From a virus, in IMG/VR virus record IMGVR_UViG_3300047462_000016, positions 1-25,446 of that record: a DNA stretch of 25,446 bases; one strand, written 5' to 3'. Shown here piece after piece: positions 2,120 through 24,614 of the stretch. Each line of letters begins with the position of its first letter. The stretch's first letter is position 1. The notes under the pieces were generated by a model that did not search any database, was not told the origin of the DNA, and saw nothing but the letters and a program-made list of their open reading frames with translations. Both the position numbers and the translations under genes were made by a program.

Positions 2120-2298
2120 TCTTTGCTTTCGGCTAACAGTTTTTTGATGTTAGCTGCGTAAGCTTTGTTAGCCTCGCGTACACAGTCCTTGCACTGGCCG
2201 TTGGATGTGTACCTGATGCCTTTGTGACCGTGTTTGCAGGGGCGACCTTGATAGGTCCAGGCCCCGTCTTTGGCGGCTGAGAGTCGAGCGTCGGTCAT
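2116..2298 (-). CDS. Small phage zinc-binding protein (CxHxH-CxxC)
   Basis: Protein of 60 residues. The central motif Cys21-x-His23-x-His25 ... Cys36-x2-Cys39, with GIRYTSNGQC between, is the layout of small phage zinc proteins of the PCxxGHxxxRYTSxGxCxxC type. These resemble the zinc-binding N-terminal part of some HNH endonucleases but lack the nuclease. The C-terminal tail is a lysine-rich helix. The start ATG overlaps the upstream gene's stop as ATGA (2295-2298). It may help neighbouring DNA-binding proteins, but no function can be assigned from sequence. Confidence 0.6.
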   Translation of the reverse strand: MTDARLSAAKDGAWTYQGRPCKHGHKGIRYTSNGQCKDCVREANKAYAANIKKLLAESKE

Positions 2299-3173
2299 GC
2301 TGATTCCATTCGTTCAGTTTTCAGCATCATATTTACGGTCGCCTTTGAAACATCCATTTTCTTGGCGATTTCTCCGATTGTTTTTCCATCATCAAAGAGC
2401 CTTTTCGCGTACAGTGCGCGATTCTTCCGTGCAGCACTTTTCAACCCGCCTGTATAAAAGGAATTTTGAGCGAGGGTAAGAATCTCGCAGTTCTCAGGGG
2501 AAAAAGGACCGTTCTTGTCCTTTCGACCGAGGACAAGGGAATTACGCTCACGCTTGAACAGATGCTCGCGCCCATTCAAGAGCGCGGCATATTGCGGAAG
2601 GGTGAACTTCCATTCTGTATGTTGTCTTTGGGCGGTTCCTCTATGATGCCAATAGAGTTGAATCAGCCGGTTATTAGCATGGCGCTTGAGCTGATTCGTT
2701 CTGGTGAGCGCGAAGAATTCTTCAAGAGAACATCCGTAGACATGGAAGCAGCGTTTTTCTGCGCGCGCTCTATTATCAATGGCTCTCGCTACTGAATTTC
2801 TGGCGGCGCGTTTATGACTGCCACCATCCTCTTTTTTAATACCAATGGAAGAAATTAGCTGGCGAACGCGCTCCCGCGTCATTCGTTCTTGAATGCCAAT
2901 TTCTTCAAGAGTCATTCCTTGCTTGTAGTTTTCGGCAAGAGCTTTAGCTCGTTCAATGCGTTCGTTCTTCGCGGCCTCGCGTTGTTCGGCGCGGATCTTT
3001 CGGTATTCTTCGACGGCTGTGATGGCTTGAAGAATTCCTTGTTCGTCCCAAAAGCGAGCTTTCCCGATCCAGCCACTTTCCTTGACAATACCTGGGAGAA
3101 TATAGGTGGTGTAAAAGGCGCTGCGAGAGATGCCGCAGCGTTCGGCGGTTTGGAGAATGTCGAAGATAGCCAT
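2295..3173 (-). CDS. DNA-binding protein with sigma-70 region 4-like HTH and degenerate HNH-like segment
   Basis: Protein of 292 residues and the first gene of the minus-strand cluster. Three DNA-binding-type segments are visible. The N-terminal helix-turn-helix (about 10-30, ERCGISRSAFY) could be MerR/excisionase-like. A sigma-70 region 4.2-type helix (about 85-112) carries the string TRERVRQL. A C-terminal resolvase-like HTH (about 262-285) reads KTIGEIAKKMDVSKATVNMML. Between them, GRKDKNGPFSPENCEILTLAQNS (split here as GRKDKNGPFSP and ENCEILTLAQNS) matches the second half of phage HNH-like modules, whose usual form ends ...YxPxNCRxxTxxxQN, but the paired histidines are missing. It is probably a regulator or a nuclease relic. 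ATG at 3173 has AAAGGTGG about 12 bases upstream, a rather long spacing. Confidence 0.6.
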   Translation of the reverse strand: MAIFDILQTAERCGISRSAFYTTYILPGIVKESGWIGKARFWDEQGILQAITAVEEYRKIRAEQREAAKNERIERAKALAENYKQGMTLEEIGIQERMTRERVRQLISSIGIKKEDGGSHKRAARNSVARAIDNRARAEKRCFHVYGCSLEEFFALTRTNQLKRHANNRLIQLYWHHRGTAQRQHTEWKFTLPQYAALLNGREHLFKRERNSLVLGRKDKNGPFSPENCEILTLAQNSFYTGGLKSAARKNRALYAKRLFDDGKTIGEIAKKMDVSKATVNMMLKTERMESA

Positions 3174-4176: not shown

Positions 4177-5497
4177 TCCGATTTACACTCCGCGCCGTCC
4201 TTTCGTCGCGCTACACAAAAGAAAGCAGCGATGGGTATGTCTCGTTGCTCACCGCAGAGCAGGAAAGACAGTTGCGGCGGTGAACGAATTAATCAAAGGC
4301 GCTATCGAGTGCGACAAACCGCGACCGCAATTCGCCTACATCGCGCCTTTCCGGGATCAAGGAAAGAAAGTTGCCTGGGAATATCTCAAGCAATACTCAG
4401 AGCCAATCTGGGCAGACAAGCCGAATGAATCCGAACTCAAAGTCAAACTCCTTGGGGATGCCTCGATCAGTGTTTACGGCGCTGATAATCCTGATGCTCT
4501 GCGCGGTATTTATCTCGATGGTGCTTTTCTTGACGAGTTCGGAGACTTCAGACCTTCCGTTTGGGGAAATGTTATTCGTCCAGCTCTTTCTGACCGCGCT
4601 GGCTGGGCTGTGTTTGGTGGAACCCCAAAGGGCCGCAATGAATTCTGGCAGGTGCGAGAACGCGCAAGACAAACCCCCGCTGAATGGCTGCTGCTGGAGC
4701 TTCGTGCGAGCGAATCCGGCATTCTTCCACGGCAAGAGCTTGAAGAAGTAAGACGCCAACTCACCCCGGAGCAATATGCGCAGGAATTCGAGTGCGATTT
4801 CTCCGCAGCACTGCCTGGAGCGTATTTCGGACGGGAAATGGTGGTTGCAGAACGTGAAGGAAGGATCACCAGTGTTGAGGTTGACAGTGCTGTCCCGGTC
4901 TATACGGCTTGGGACATCGGTTATCGGGACGACACAGCTATCTGGTGGTTTCAAGTCATCCGAAACGAAATCCACGTCATCGACTACCACGCCTCCAGCG
5001 GCCAAACGATAGATTTCTACGCCAAGCTTATCAAAGAGCGTCCTTATCGATACGAGCGGCATTGGCTACCGCATGATGCAAGGGCTAAGACTCTGGCCTC
5101 TGGCGGAAAATCCATCATCGAGCAACTTGCAAGCCATCTCGATTTCAAGACCCTTGCAATCGCGCCTAACCTCGATATTCAGGACGGCATCCAAGCGGCA
5201 CGTATCGCCATTGGACAATCATGGTTCGATGAGCAGCGATGCTACGAAGGGCTTGAGGCCCTGCGTCAGTACCAACGCGAATACGACGAGGACAAGAAAG
5301 CTTTCAGGGAGCGGCCCAGGCACGATTGGACTTCTCACCCTGCTGATGCTTTCCGCATGCTTGCCGTGGCTTGGAGAGAGCAGGAACCGCCTAAGCCAGC
5401 CTCAGAACCCATGCGCGGCATCATGGTAGGCCCGGAGAACAGGGTGACGCTGGAAGAGATGTGGCGCGTTCCCAAGCGGCAGGAGCGGAGGATTTAG
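4172..5497 (+). CDS. terL: Terminase large subunit (ATPase-nuclease), probable ATT start
   Basis: This is the packaging motor ATPase and headful/cohesive-end nuclease. Read from ATT at 4172 it has 441 residues: the adenine-binding YTPRRPF start, Walker A AHRRAGKT (26-33), Walker B GIYLDGAFLDEFGD (112-125), coupling motif GTPKG (150-154), the RuvC-like nuclease WDIGYRDD (247-254), and the C-terminal HDWTSHPADAFR (384-395) with a metal-binding Asp. The first ATG/GTG/TTG in frame is GTG at 4280, which lies after Walker A and would give a dead enzyme. The frame opens after a TGA at 4154-4156 and contains no conventional start before 4280. ATT at 4172 has GGGGA at 4160-4164, 7 bases upstream, and overlaps the TerS-like stop. 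A +1 frameshift from the upstream gene is the alternative. Confidence 0.9.
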   Translation: MDPIYTPRRPFVALHKRKQRWVCLVAHRRAGKTVAAVNELIKGAIECDKPRPQFAYIAPFRDQGKKVAWEYLKQYSEPIWADKPNESELKVKLLGDASISVYGADNPDALRGIYLDGAFLDEFGDFRPSVWGNVIRPALSDRAGWAVFGGTPKGRNEFWQVRERARQTPAEWLLLELRASESGILPRQELEEVRRQLTPEQYAQEFECDFSAALPGAYFGREMVVAEREGRITSVEVDSAVPVYTAWDIGYRDDTAIWWFQVIRNEIHVIDYHASSGQTIDFYAKLIKERPYRYERHWLPHDARAKTLASGGKSIIEQLASHLDFKTLAIAPNLDIQDGIQAARIAIGQSWFDEQRCYEGLEALRQYQREYDEDKKAFRERPRHDWTSHPADAFRMLAVAWREQEPPKPASEPMRGIMVGPENRVTLEEMWRVPKRQERRI

Positions 5498-5499
5498 CC

Positions 5500-5655
5500 A
5501 TTCCTTGGTCTAGCAAACAGCATCGTCTTTTCGAGGCCGCAGCGCACAACCCGCAGGTAGCGGCTCGCGTTGGTATTCCGCAGCAGAAGGCCGCGCAGAT
5601 GGCCTCAGAGGGCATCAAACGAACCGCAGTCGCAGCGGCTTTGAAGAAAAAATGA
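5500..5655 (+). CDS. Small conserved phage protein between terL and portal (probable ATT start)
   Basis: Basic protein of 51 residues reading (M)PWSSKQHRLFEAAAHNP and VARVGIPQQKAAQMAS-like helices, a short helical family common near terminase and portal genes in podophages, of unknown function. GTG at 5461 is possible (64 residues, overlapping terL by 37 bases), but its GGAAGAG lies only 2 bases upstream. The ATT at 5500 has a perfect GGAGG at 5487-5491 with 8-base spacing, sits 2 bases after the terL stop, and makes the protein begin with the usual MPW/MPF-x-SK pattern. I prefer ATT; the GTG start remains a fallback. Confidence 0.6.
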   Translation: MPWSSKQHRLFEAAAHNPQVAARVGIPQQKAAQMASEGIKRTAVAAALKKK

Positions 5656-11054: not shown

Positions 11055-11093
11055 ATGGCTTTTGCCAATAGTTCCATCACGGACATCATCGCT
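11055..11093 (+). CDS. Major capsid protein, exon 1 (codons 1-13)
   Basis: AGGAG lies 6 bases before ATG at 11055, and the frame reads MAFANSSITDIIA, the typical N-terminus of this capsid family. It then runs into TTT-TAA inside the intron. The exon ends at GCT (11091-11093), the last base U pairing with G of the intron guide sequence. Splicing to ACC at 11906 gives ...SSITDIIA-TTIQSRSG..., restoring the frame between codons. The whole mature protein would be 343 residues. Confidence 0.85.
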
Positions 11094-11095
11094 TT

Positions 11096-11662
11096 TTAAA
11101 GATGCGAAATGTCTTTTTCGGTTATTCGGTTCTTCTTCTTGCGATTCTGCGCAACCGTTAGATATTGCAGATTCCAAGGCACATGAAGCCCGCTAACAGG
11201 ACGGCCATCAATCAATCCCTTAAGGGGAATGATATGGTCAACCTCGTGCCCCTTCGGACAGTTTGCGTAGATGCTCAAAAGAGCGTCCTTGCAAACCCAA
11301 GCAGGAGTGCAGCGTTTAACGTCCTTTCTGCGGAAGTAAAGCCTAGCCGGATTGTTGGGGTCATTCGCCCATCGTTCGCGCCTCGCCTCGTTAATGGTTT
11401 GCTTGCGTCTATCGTAAGCGGCCTTTTTCTGAGCAGCGATGCGTTCGCGGTAGGCGGCGTCCTTAGCGTATCTGGCGGCTCTCCATGCGTTTTGGTAGGC
11501 GCGGTATCTCCCCTTGTATTGCGTTGCTCTGGCGCGGCTGGAAGCGTTGGAGCAGGGCTTGCAACGGTAGCTGACGGTATCGAGCTTTCGGTAGAACTCG
11601 GAACGCGGTTTGTCGATGCCGCATCCGGGGCAGATTTTGCTAGTAAAAGGCTGCTTAGCCAT
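11096..11662 (-). CDS. HNH homing endonuclease, antisense in the intron P1 loop
   Basis: Protein of 188 residues on the strand opposite the capsid gene. An N-terminal zinc ribbon (Cys11-x2-Cys14 ... Cys34-x2-Cys37) in the form CPGCGIDKPRSEFY is common in phage HNH proteins. A basic, arginine-rich linker follows (about 40-115). The HNH fold lies in 139-180: HEVDHIIPL with His143, GLHVPWNLQ with Asn164, and QNRKKKN with Asn173. ATG at 11662 is chosen over the frame's upstream extension to 11761, which would run into the intron core. No Shine-Dalgarno is present, but an extended -10 ends 6 bases upstream, suggesting a leaderless mRNA. The stop TAA (11098-11096) is 2 bases inside the 5' splice site. 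It presumably cleaves intronless capsid alleles and drives intron homing; that role is inferred from family and location. Confidence 0.85.
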   Translation of the reverse strand: MAKQPFTSKICPGCGIDKPRSEFYRKLDTVSYRCKPCSNASSRARATQYKGRYRAYQNAWRAARYAKDAAYRERIAAQKKAAYDRRKQTINEARRERWANDPNNPARLYFRRKDVKRCTPAWVCKDALLSIYANCPKGHEVDHIIPLKGLIDGRPVSGLHVPWNLQYLTVAQNRKKKNRITEKDISHL

Positions 11663-11668
11663 ATAGAC

Positions 11669-11677
11669 ATTATAGCA
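11669..11677 (-). promoter_or_regulatory. Extended -10 promoter for the antisense HNH gene
   Basis: On the minus strand the bases read TG-C-TATAAT (11677 to 11669), a perfect extended -10 hexamer. The start ATG at 11662 lies 6 bases downstream, where transcription would begin, implying a leaderless transcript. No good -35 is visible, as is usual for extended -10 promoters. The site falls between the endonuclease gene and the intron guide sequence, in intron-specific DNA. Confidence 0.5.
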
Positions 11678-11905
11678 CCGGTAGGCGATGTAAAACAGCG
11701 TGAATTGCGGGAAAAGCGAGCTACGCCAATCCGCAGCCAAGGCGATCAGGAATGGTCGCAAGGTTCAGAGACTAGGGCATGGAGTCCAGACCGGACAGTA
11801 AAGCCCCACGAGCGCGCTGCACCCATTAAGGGTGATGAGATAGTCCGACCTGTGCGGTTGAACGCACAGAAGCAGGAGATAAAGAACTCCTGCGATAACA
11901 AAGTG

Positions 11906-12898
11906 ACCACGATCCAAAGTCGCAGCGGTGAATTGGCGGATAACTTCACCAACAACAATGCGCTGCTGCGCCGAGTGAAGGCGAAGGGAAACGTCAAGCC
12001 GTTCTCAGGCGGTAATGTGATCTTGCAGGAAATCGCATATACCGATTCCACCACCATCAACGCCAACAGCTATTCGGGATATGAAATCCTGAATATCACG
12101 CCGAACAGCCCCATTTCGGCGGCGCAGTTCAGCATCACGCAGTATGCGGCAGCCGTCACGATGTCCGGCCTCGAAATGCTGCAAAACAGCGGCAAAGAGG
12201 CAATCATCGACATGATGGAAGGCCGTATTGCGATTGCGGAAGGCCAACTGCCGAACCGCATCGACTACGACCTGTATCAAGACGGCACGGGCAACTCGGG
12301 TAAGAACGTCACCGGCCTTGCGGCGGCGGTCCCCGATACCCCCACCAGCGGCACTTACGGCGGCATCTCGCGCTCTTCGTTCGCTTTCTGGCAGTCGGTG
12401 TCGTATTCCGGCGTCACGAACGGCGGTGCGGCGGTGTCGGCGGCGAACATCCAGCCGTACATGACCGCTCTGGGTATCCGCCTCGTCCGTGGCCGCGACA
12501 TGCCGGATCTGTGGGTAGCGGACAACACCTACTACCAGTATTACGTCAACAGCCTGCAAGCCATCCAGCGCATTAACAGCGATTCTGGTAGCGGCACTGC
12601 GGGCGCTGGCTTCCCGTCGCTGAAGTTCTACGGCGGTGGCATGGCGGCTGACGTGGTTCTCGGCGGCGGTGTCAGCGGTGCGGTTTCGTCCAGTGTCTCA
12701 TCGAGCGGGGCAACCTCCGCGCACATGTGGGCGCTCAACACGAACTACATCTTCTTCCGCCCTCACAGGGACCGCAACTTCGTTCCAATCGGTGGTGAGC
12801 GTCAGTCGGTGAACCAGGACGCCATCGTGAAACTGATCGGCTGGGCTGGCAATCTCTGCTGCTCGAATTCGAGCTTGCAGGGCGTGCTGATCGCATAA
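11906..12898 (+). CDS. Major capsid protein, exon 2
   Basis: Main part of the major capsid protein (330 residues of the 343-residue spliced product), starting TTIQSRSGELADN and continuing through VSGGNVILQEI-like FSGGNVILQEIAYTDS, typical of a podophage HK97-fold capsid family. The downstream region is rich in Gly/Ala/Ser loops and ends with GWAGNLCCSNSSLQGVLIA. No start codon or ribosome binding site precedes ACC at 11906, so expression depends on splicing. The frame stays open upstream across much of the intron (back to about 11165), and a naive reading would give a false fused protein of 577 residues. Confidence 0.88.
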   Translation, partial: TTIQSRSGELADNFTNNNALLRRVKAKGNVKPFSGGNVILQEIAYTDSTTINANSYSGYEILNITPNSPISAAQFSITQYAAAVTMSGLEMLQNSGKEAIIDMMEGRIAIAEGQLPNRIDYDLYQDGTGNSGKNVTGLAAAVPDTPTSGTYGGISRSSFAFWQSVSYSGVTNGGAAVSAANIQPYMTALGIRLVRGRDMPDLWVADNTYYQYYVNSLQAIQRINSDSGSGTAGAGFPSLKFYGGGMAADVVLGGGVSGAVSSSVSSSGATSAHMWALNTNYIFFRPHRDRNFVPIGGERQSVNQDAIVKLIGWAGNLCCSNSSLQGVLIA

Positions 12899-12910: not shown

Positions 12911-13441
12911 ATGTCCAACACTTTTTACACGAACGGCAGCACCATCGGCTTCGATGCGTCCAACATGAGCGCAACCGCTCTGTTCGCGCTCGGCAGCCAC
13001 ATGCTCGGCAACAACGAGACGGAATGGGTATATGTCCAAGCCCAGACCACCATCAGTGCGCTTTCCTGGGTTGCGTTCAATGCGACTTACTCCGCCGGTA
13101 TGGCCTCGGCGGGCGACGTAGCGGCGAACGGCATGACGATTGCCCTTGCAAACGCGCAAATCTCGGCCAGTTCCTACGGTTGGGTGGCGATTCGAGGTCT
13201 GGGCCTCTCCGGTATCTTCACAGGCACCGGCTCCCTCGCCCTCACCAGCGGCCAACTGCAACTGGCATCGAGCGCCGGGACGACCGGCACAATGATGCTG
13301 GGGACGGTGGGAACGGCGAGTTGCACCATCGCTGGCGCTTCTCTGGTTGCGACGGCGAGTTCCTCGGCTACCGGTCTGGGTGCGGGTGCGTCGAACGTGA
13401 CGCTCTTTAACCTCTACTGGCCGCAACAAGCTACCAGGTAA
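12911..13441 (+). CDS. Decoration-like virion protein after the capsid gene
   Basis: Protein of 176 residues, very rich in Ala, Gly, Ser and Thr, with repeated short strand patterns (GTGSLAL, GQLQLASS, GTMMLGT) and few charges, typical of beta-structured capsid decoration or head proteins. AAGGAGA is 9 bases before the ATG. The position right after the capsid gene supports a decoration role, which remains inference. Its stop shares one base with the next ATG (TAATG). Confidence 0.65.
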   Translation: MSNTFYTNGSTIGFDASNMSATALFALGSHMLGNNETEWVYVQAQTTISALSWVAFNATYSAGMASAGDVAANGMTIALANAQISASSYGWVAIRGLGLSGIFTGTGSLALTSGQLQLASSAGTTGTMMLGTVGTASCTIAGASLVATASSSATGLGAGASNVTLFNLYWPQQATR

Positions 13442-14454
13442 TGGAGATTCGTCCCGCTACGCTGGACGAGGTAAGAAACGCACAGGCTTCGGGGAACGTC
13501 CTGAAGCCTGTGCGGCTTGCTTTGTGCATGGAAAGCTGCATTACCGAAGTAGAAATGCACGACAACTTTTTTGCGACGCTAGAGCGCGGATTCACGCCAA
13601 TCAATGAATACCTTGGGGCTTTCAGCGGCACTTGCTCCGTGGTTGGATCAGCTCCGTCCATCAGGCAGACACATAAGGAACTGCAAGGAGATGTAATCGC
13701 CATCAACAGCGCCATCGGCTACCTGCTGGATAACGGGGTGGTTCCAAAATTTGGTGTTCTGTGGGATGGAACAGAAATTATTGAGAAGTTCGCAAGACCA
13801 CATCCTGACATTACCTACCTTGTGGCTTCGCGTTGTCATCCTAAAGTCTTTGAGAGGCTGAAGGACTGCAAGGTAATTGTTTGGCACGCCGGAGGCGACC
13901 ACAACATCGTAGAAGTCATGCAAAGGGAAGATGTTGTAAAGAAAATGGGCATCCCGCAGCCGCTTGTGCTTGGCGGTTCCGCAGGGGTGACCAGGACCAT
14001 GTACCTCGCCACAGCCTTGGGCTACACGGATCTGCACATCTACGGGGCCGATTCAAGCTATTCCCATGATGGGGATACGCATATCGCCGGAAGCTTGGTT
14101 CCAGAGAAAGACTTCACCATCAGCATCGGGGATAACTCGGAAGGTGCGCCTGCGGTGTGGTTCAGGACGACGCCAGAATGGTGCCAGCAGGTGAATGAAT
14201 ACCGGTCCATCTATGCTCTTTTTACGCTTGGCGGAAGGATCAAGATTGCCGTGCATGGAGGAGGGCTTTTAGGGGAGATGCACGCCAGGATTTCTTCGCA
14301 GAAGGAATTTCTTGGAGAGGAAAAGTTCAACGAGAAGATAATCGCGCAGGATCTTTTGCAGGCAGAAGTAAACGACATGGCTTCTGGAATTGATAGCAAG
14401 AAAGAATCTCATCCTCTACAGGAGAAAGAAAATGTCTCAAATGCTTGCCAGTGA
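13441..14454 (+). CDS. DUF115/MptE-like, Maf-type putative glycosyltransferase
   Basis: Protein of 337 residues. GSAPS (69-73), DVIAINSAI (84-92), PKFGVLWDG (102-110) and the long block GGSAGVTRTMYLATALGY (178-195), ending IYGAD (200-204), are hallmarks of the DUF115/MptE-like Rossmann-like domain. Relatives include archaeal MptE pterin diphosphokinases and bacterial Maf proteins, which are needed to transfer pseudaminic, legionaminic or sialic-type sugars onto flagellin. In a late phage operon, beside capsid genes and in a genome with neuB and neuC, the Maf-like role is attractive but inferred. The C-terminal 60 residues are a charged helical extension. ATG overlaps the previous stop by one base; the end overlaps the next gene by 23 bases. 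Confidence 0.7.
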   Translation: MEIRPATLDEVRNAQASGNVLKPVRLALCMESCITEVEMHDNFFATLERGFTPINEYLGAFSGTCSVVGSAPSIRQTHKELQGDVIAINSAIGYLLDNGVVPKFGVLWDGTEIIEKFARPHPDITYLVASRCHPKVFERLKDCKVIVWHAGGDHNIVEVMQREDVVKKMGIPQPLVLGGSAGVTRTMYLATALGYTDLHIYGADSSYSHDGDTHIAGSLVPEKDFTISIGDNSEGAPAVWFRTTPEWCQQVNEYRSIYALFTLGGRIKIAVHGGGLLGEMHARISSQKEFLGEEKFNEKIIAQDLLQAEVNDMASGIDSKKESHPLQEKENVSNACQ

Positions 14455-24046: not shown

Positions 24047-24255
24047 TGCCGAAGAAGAAAAGACGGTATTTTGTAGATGACTGGCGAACACTCCATAAGA
24101 CGTGGACATTCCGGCTTGGCATCCTTGTTGGCACGATTCCGCAGATTTACCAGCAGCTACCGTGGCTGAATGACTACATGCCGCTGGCTCACCTAACGAG
24201 CCTCTTGACCGTGTTTCTGCTGATCGGCAGGGCGTTGAATCAGGAGCCGAAGTGA
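24046..24255 (+). CDS. Holin-like small membrane protein
   Basis: Protein of 69 residues with a basic start (PKKKRR), DDWRTLHKTWTFRLG, and two hydrophobic segments (about 22-36 and 46-62). This DDWR-start two-span type is widespread in lysis cassettes of phages of Gram-negative hosts and is usually annotated as a holin. It overlaps its neighbours: one base upstream and GTGA (24252-24255) downstream. Confidence 0.6.
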   Translation: MPKKKRRYFVDDWRTLHKTWTFRLGILVGTIPQIYQQLPWLNDYMPLAHLTSLLTVFLLIGRALNQEPK

Positions 24256-24614
24256 CTTGGGAGTACGAACAGGCTACGGGCATCATGTCGCATAACGACA
24301 AGCTCGTAGCGCACGGGTATTCAGGGGCCGGAGATGGGAAGAATAATCCTGCCAAGCAGGAAGTGCAATGTGTCGGCCCGATTCCAGTCGGAACTTACAC
24401 TATTGAAGCGCCGATAGATACCAAAACGCATGGGCCTTACGCGATGCACCTGACACCTGATCCGAAGAATGAAATGTTCGGGCGGTCTGCCTTTATGATC
24501 CACGGGGATTCAGTGGTGCATCCTGGGACGGCAAGCGAGGGCTGTATCATTCTCCCCAGAGCAGTAAGGGAGCAGATTTGGGCATCCGGTGATAGAACCT
24601 TGGAGGTTATATGA
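24252..24614 (+). CDS. DUF2778/Tlde1-like L,D-transpeptidase-fold lysis protein
   Basis: Protein of 120 residues. VGPIPVGTYTI (41-51), GPYAMHLTPDP (61-71), GRSAFMIHGDS (77-87) and ASEGCIILPR (94-103) form the L,D-transpeptidase-like signature, with His84 and Cys98 as the expected catalytic pair. This matches DUF2778/Tlde1-type proteins, which cut or exchange peptides in peptidoglycan. Placed between holin-like genes and spanins, where an endolysin is expected, it probably attacks the cell wall. No signal peptide is present, so it would need the holin. GTG overlaps the previous stop by 4 bases; the stop overlaps the next ATG by 4. Confidence 0.65.
   Translation: MTWEYEQATGIMSHNDKLVAHGYSGAGDGKNNPAKQEVQCVGPIPVGTYTIEAPIDTKTHGPYAMHLTPDPKNEMFGRSAFMIHGDSVVHPGTASEGCIILPRAVREQIWASGDRTLEVI

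Follow-up and report, generated by a model that had tools for sequence, protein, structure and literature searches.

A group I intron in a phage major capsid gene with an antisense HNH/endonuclease VII-like homing gene in its P1 loop

Introduction

The capsid intron of mycobacteriophage LittleE (JF937101) carries a homing gene on the bottom strand, and its splicing was demonstrated by RT-PCR and protein sequencing (PMC3706429). Antisense homing genes are also established in nuclear rDNA group I introns (PMC9548176, PMC3073962). Additionally, one published route to composite introns starts from a free-standing nuclease already adapted to an intron site (PMC3984707). The out-of-frame HNH element of ShiLan was considered as a further parallel and set aside, its authors having found no group I intron structure (PMC11855218). 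Here, we describe an intron family in which a homing gene of a different type lies antisense within the P1 loop (L1) of a group I intron in a capsid gene, and we compare it with these systems.

Results and Discussion

The capsid gene and its splice junction

The window analysed is the entire IMG/VR record IMGVR_UViG_3300047462_000016, with a length of 25,446 bases. Judging from its sequence, the source is an uncultured tailed phage with an Mx8-type capsid protein. A near-identity search of the whole window against isolated phages returned no match, and none was found in a plasmid search. Other genes of the window include, at the contig end (38-1683, minus strand), NeuB-like (PF03102) and UDP-GlcNAc 2-epimerase-like (PF02350) genes, suggesting nonulosonic or sialic acid synthesis. 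The protein encoded at 2295-3173 (minus strand) matches sigma-70 region 4 and helix-turn-helix models and, weakly, HNH-family PHROGs, while a Tlde1-domain protein (24252-24614; PF10908, E 2.4e-16), a peptidoglycan-acting domain, occupies a lysis-gene position.

The major capsid gene is divided into exon 1 (11055..11093, plus strand), comprising 13 codons (MAFANSSITDIIA) in a region that is contiguous in intronless relatives, and exon 2 (11906..12898, plus strand). Joining the two yields a capsid protein of 344 aa. Exon 2 matches the major head protein family phrog_9953 (PHROGs, E 8.7e-90), and the capsid protein shares 44% identity with that of Mx8. At the A13|T14 junction, intronless relatives are contiguous and read MAFANxx[IV]xDIIA|TTIQ, with the consensus MAF(A/P)Nxx(I/V)(S/T)DIIA followed by TTIQ. 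Almost all of the 80 capsid relatives in viral contigs read uninterrupted at the exact junction, about 70 being intronless, and an insert at the codon-13 site is present in 5 of the 80. The isolated phages Mx8 (SDIIT|TTIES) and BUCT555 (SDIIA|TTIES) are likewise intronless at this position. Past exon 1, the sense frame runs into a stop no later than the second codon in the window, and at the first codon of the intron in relatives; this would be expected if translation of unspliced mRNA is to end there.

In one of the 80, L018, an unrelated insert was observed further into the same capsid gene (4248-5000). It encodes a sense GIY-YIG gene (PF01541, E 4.4e-7) and represents a second, independent insertion site within this capsid family.

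The group I ribozyme

The sequence between the exons (11094..11905, plus strand, 812 nt) ends in a terminal G (G11905) and scores 73.9 bits against RF00028 (plus strand, 11635-11869; E 2.7e-17; gathering score 50). The 5' strand of P1, CATCGCT, lies in exon 1 (11087..11093), ends in the U of a U.G pair and pairs with the internal guide sequence (IGS) GGCGATG at 11684..11690. The sequence also allows helices P3, P4, P5, P6, P7, P7.1/7.2, P8, P9 and an extra 3' hairpin to be drawn. When the hand-drawn structure, comprising 56 pairs, was evaluated on an alignment of 13 introns from the codon-13 site, 92.4% of the cells paired and both-side changes occurred in 35 of the 56 pairs. The covariation score was 0.486, compared with 0.146 +/- 0.014 after shuffling (0 of 500 shuffles), and the signal was lost on sliding the partners.

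Individual helices follow the same pattern, all on the plus strand. In P3, CAGCGTG (11696..11702) and its partner CGCGCTG (11813..11819) are 98.9% paired in the covariation alignment, with both-side changes in three pairs, while in P7 GACTA (11770..11774) and TAGTC (11841..11845) are 100% paired and contain two covarying pairs. The P9 hairpin CTGTGCG/CGCACAG (11850..11869) and the further 3' hairpin GCAGGAG/CTCCTGC (11872..11893) display both-side changes in six and four of their seven pairs, respectively. A compensatory change is also found in P1: L090 combines the exon sequence CCTCGCT with the IGS GGCGAG, while the others combine (C/T)ATCGCT with GGCGAT. Intron-bearing members have GCT as codon 13, its U facing the G of the IGS at the 5' splice site, and their introns end in G. 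The P7.1/P7.2-like helices suggest subgroup IA, an assignment of our own.

The family match and the covariation confirm 11094-11905 as a group I intron in the major capsid gene, from which a spliced capsid mRNA would be produced. The initial annotation had proposed this intron, its position after codon 13, the U-G pair and the terminal G, and all are borne out by the RF00028 match and by homologues that align across the junction; neither result speaks against it. Its drawing of core helices P1 and P3-P9 agrees with the covariation, but the P10 that it included is weak: it has 3 bp in the window, ranges from 0 to 5 bp among members and is absent from several relatives.

The antisense nuclease gene

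On the opposite strand, L1 contains an open reading frame of 188 aa (11662..11096, minus strand), whose stop codon lies two bases from the splice site. The initial annotation had called it an antisense HNH gene, and its placement and orientation are upheld. The HNH label is supported in part: the protein matches phrog_1035 (endonuclease VII, E 1.5e-17) and retains four invariant cysteines, the invariant residues D142 H143, H160, N164 and N173 and the invariant motif DHI-PL...GLHV--NLQ...N-KK, but Pfam and NCBIfam searches gave no HNH family match. An AlphaFold model (mean pLDDT 79) places a strand-strand-helix arrangement around the invariant motif, and the top Foldseek matches are mostly HNH/beta-beta-alpha-metal nucleases, although with E > 0.6. 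A PDB sequence search with the HNH profile returned nothing meaningful. The same profile retrieved only distant relatives from genome contigs, and therefore no bacterial host is named.

All close relatives of the nuclease that were found (at least 53% identity across most of its length) lie at this capsid locus, in 17 contigs including the window; beyond these, full-length identity is below 46%. Differences by codon position in the antisense frame number 8189/6320/15036, third positions being the most variable, and dN/dS ranges from 0.04 to 0.19 in those pairs whose dS could be measured. By these comparisons, the gene is conserved as a protein and under purifying selection.

Two readings that deny the gene a function were weighed against these data. 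According to the first, there is no splicing, the sense frame 11165-12898 encodes an N-terminally extended capsid protein, and the antisense frame is a by-product of G+C-rich coding. In the window, the sense frame does run uninterrupted for 577 codons, across the insert and on into exon 2; in relatives such as L028 and L020, however, it does not stay open across the insert, and on this ground the extended capsid was rejected. Moreover, the capsid homologues begin with MAFAN...DIIA|TTIQ, the ribozyme core covaries, and the variable third positions belong to the antisense frame, making this explanation extremely improbable. The second reading accepts a splicing intron and regards the nuclease as a decaying, unexpressed gene that is carried along. 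Homing genes often degenerate once fixed, and a convincing -35 element is absent from the window, but all 15 intronic copies are open over their sequenced extent, the catalytic motif DHI...H...N is invariant, and both the low dN/dS and the recent homing footprints described below argue against decay, which we consider very unlikely. A conserved nuclease gene within a spliced intron is thus the reading we retain.

A putative antisense promoter

The extended -10 element TGCTATAAT, a predicted promoter, is located at 11669..11677 on the minus strand, 6 nt upstream of the nuclease start codon. The sequence TGNTATAAT occurs only at this minus-strand position (11669-11677) in the window, where 0.24 occurrences are expected by chance. 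Among 15 copies, a TATAAT, TATGAT or GATAAT box precedes the start codon by 6 nt in 10, the two free-standing copies included, and by 7-9 nt in three, while 27 nt separate it from the annotated ATG in L028 and L068. Transcription initiating 7 nt downstream of the -10 box would begin at the ATG itself, hence the mRNA would be leaderless. The window has a poor -35 element, and a simple consensus scanner did not call this promoter. Together, the conserved position and sequence of the box suggest a separate leaderless antisense transcript from a dedicated -10 promoter.

The same stretch overlaps a conserved L1 sequence, GACATTATAGCA (11666..11677, plus strand), resembling the exon-1 half-site GACATCATCGCT at 9 of 12 positions in most members and 10 of 12 in L055. 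It may also serve as an operator resembling the homing site, which we offer as a lead only. Since 9/12 matches to the half-site also arise by chance elsewhere in these introns, homing-site mimicry was dropped as an independent statistic.

The half-site likeness also favours a different interpretation, in which the GACATTATAGC/TATAAT stretch is an intron RNA element or a nuclease binding site, and the nuclease is expressed by read-through transcription. A near-homing-site pattern, chosen post hoc, occurs only twice in the window, and the T4 I-TevI operator, which resembles its homing site, overlaps the I-TevI promoter (PMC2988022). However, the chance matches weaken the likeness, and the spacing of the box is kept to the start codon and not to the IGS, from which its distance varies between 7 and 12 nt. 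The box is present at 6 nt in both copies outside introns as well, and an operator and a promoter are compatible with each other. We therefore judge a stretch without promoter function unlikely, and a promoter remains our preferred reading.

Spread of the intron and homing footprints

Another 14 contigs, dispersed across the capsid tree, share the antisense-in-L1 layout. A search with the intron-core pattern retrieved 11 contigs, all already in the known set and all with the antisense gene (11/11). The capsid tree requires 11 changes for 12 intron-bearing rows, against a mean of 11.2 with shuffled labels, which makes the distribution a patchy one.

Comparisons of near-identical pairs with and without the intron were informative. 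The capsid protein of L020 lies at (nearly) zero tree distance from the intronless L015-L017. Their DNA is identical over 361/361 nt upstream of the ATG and over most of exon 1. The final 7 nt of exon 1 then contain three differences and the initial 168 nt of exon 2 another 14, beyond which 311/312 nt are identical. A similar footprint with a shorter tract was observed between L068 and L051. Such pairs differ mainly beside the insertion site, the footprint expected of homing with co-conversion. Distances of nuclease and ribozyme core correlate only weakly and are no more than suggestive of joint movement (Mantel test with a near-duplicate removed, r 0.23, p 0.06).

Free-standing copies of the nuclease

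In L086 and L091, members of the same nuclease lineage are free-standing and antisense, located between an upstream gene and an intronless capsid gene, approximately 240 nt (L086) and 25 nt (L091) from the capsid ATG. No ribozyme remnant was seen between the nuclease and the capsid gene in either contig. In L091, most of the wobble positions in the DIIA codons, within the last 13 nt of exon 1, differ from those of its relatives, as if the target site were resistant to the phage's own nuclease.

The occurrence of the same lineage as a free-standing antisense gene indicates that the antisense orientation was probably inherited from, or exchanged with, the free-standing state. Beyond this, we tentatively propose that the two states at one locus reflect how the composite intron was assembled, namely from an antisense homing gene that stood alone, with its own promoter and a leaderless mRNA; this would explain the orientation of the nuclease. 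It is also quite possible that L086 and L091 are intronic copies left after intron loss, and thus uninformative on the origin of the antisense layout. The nuclease tree, in which the free-standing copies are not at the base and are not firmly grouped (AU p 0.205), agrees with intron loss, as does the intronic-like box retained by the L086 gene. On the other hand, both genes lie upstream of the capsid start codon and not at codon 13, so that intron loss would need a second event to move the gene there, and the missing ribozyme remnant also speaks against it.

Proposed mechanism

With assembly from a free-standing gene kept as our tentative account of origin, the present-day element can be described with considerably more assurance: in all likelihood, it is a mobile group IA-type capsid intron with an antisense, self-promoted HNH/endonuclease VII-like gene in L1, homing at DIIA|TTIQ. 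The ribozyme would splice the 13 codons of exon 1 to exon 2, as covariation and homologues support, with the P1 loop carrying the homing gene on the opposite strand. An extended -10 promoter of its own, adjoining the ribozyme core but outside it, would give rise to a leaderless mRNA for the nuclease, whose expression would thereby be independent of capsid transcription or splicing. The enzyme would then cut capsid genes that lack the intron at the conserved DIIA|TTIQ codons, and repair templated by an intron-bearing copy would install the intron together with a short flanking exon stretch, in line with the spread and co-conversion that the sequence comparisons revealed.

An antisense homing gene in a phage intron can thus be a stable, spreading arrangement and not a single oddity. 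The locus offers a natural series of empty site, free-standing gene and intronic gene, in which models of mobile-intron assembly can be examined. A simple means of decoupling nuclease expression from a highly expressed late gene is suggested as well: a promoter of its own, the opposite strand and a leaderless mRNA.

Comparison with known systems

Motif inspection of 84 IA-like cores from viral contigs revealed approximately 15 with a sense homing-type frame nearby and three with an antisense one, in agreement with the initial annotation, which described such genes as usually sense. Its view of the antisense arrangement as unusual holds as far as the layout is uncommon, but is weakened by the LittleE capsid intron and by further antisense homing genes in L453, L466 and L400, of which L453 is the clearest. 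Given LittleE and the sampled cores, the layout is therefore uncommon but recurrent.

In L453, a group I intron (4266-5380) splits the JAMM motif of a JAB-domain gene at GLIH|SHHNMATNFSGTD (GLIH|SHHNM) and contains an antisense LAGLIDADG gene (4482-5342, minus strand). L466 (12856-13522) presents a group I core of 101 bits followed by an antisense LAGLIDADG frame (13109-13522), with exon 2 not identified. The capsid-type gene region of L400 (2985-7712) comprises several group I cores and sense HNH genes, as well as one antisense HNH_3 frame (5111-5563, minus strand).

LittleE is similar to the present family in having a group I-like intron of about 0.82 kb in the major capsid gene with a homing-type gene on the bottom strand. 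In contrast, its homing gene is LAGLIDADG-like, unrelated to the nuclease of the window, and placed 3' of the core rather than in L1, a layout checked in L530 (core 559-762, plus; homing gene 765-1298, minus); neither a conserved antisense promoter nor a free-standing relative has been described for it (PMC3706429). The Didymium genes I-DirII and I-DsqI also lie opposite the host transcript and have their own promoter (PMC9548176, PMC3073962), but they are eukaryotic and not from phages, encode His-Cys enzymes and are transcribed by RNA polymerase II, and I-DsqI is located in P9.

T4 segD resembles the nucleases of L086 and L091 in being free-standing, antisense and adjoining the major capsid gene 23, although it is of the GIY-YIG type, its promoter was not found, and it is without an intron counterpart (PMC2988022). 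T4 td/I-TevI and cyanophage F-CphI share with this family a mobile phage group I intron and a nuclease that targets the insertion site, and they represent intronic and free-standing states of one scheme, I-TevI having its own promoter (PMC2988022, PMC3984707). Both belong to different nuclease lineages; I-TevI is in the sense orientation (PMC2988022), and in the collaborative homing of F-CphI the nuclease lies outside the intron (PMC3984707). Antisense homing genes in phage introns are thus already known, and the family described here is a well-supported variant of them, in which the L1 position, the nuclease type, the conserved promoter of its own, as predicted, and the free-standing counterpart are new.
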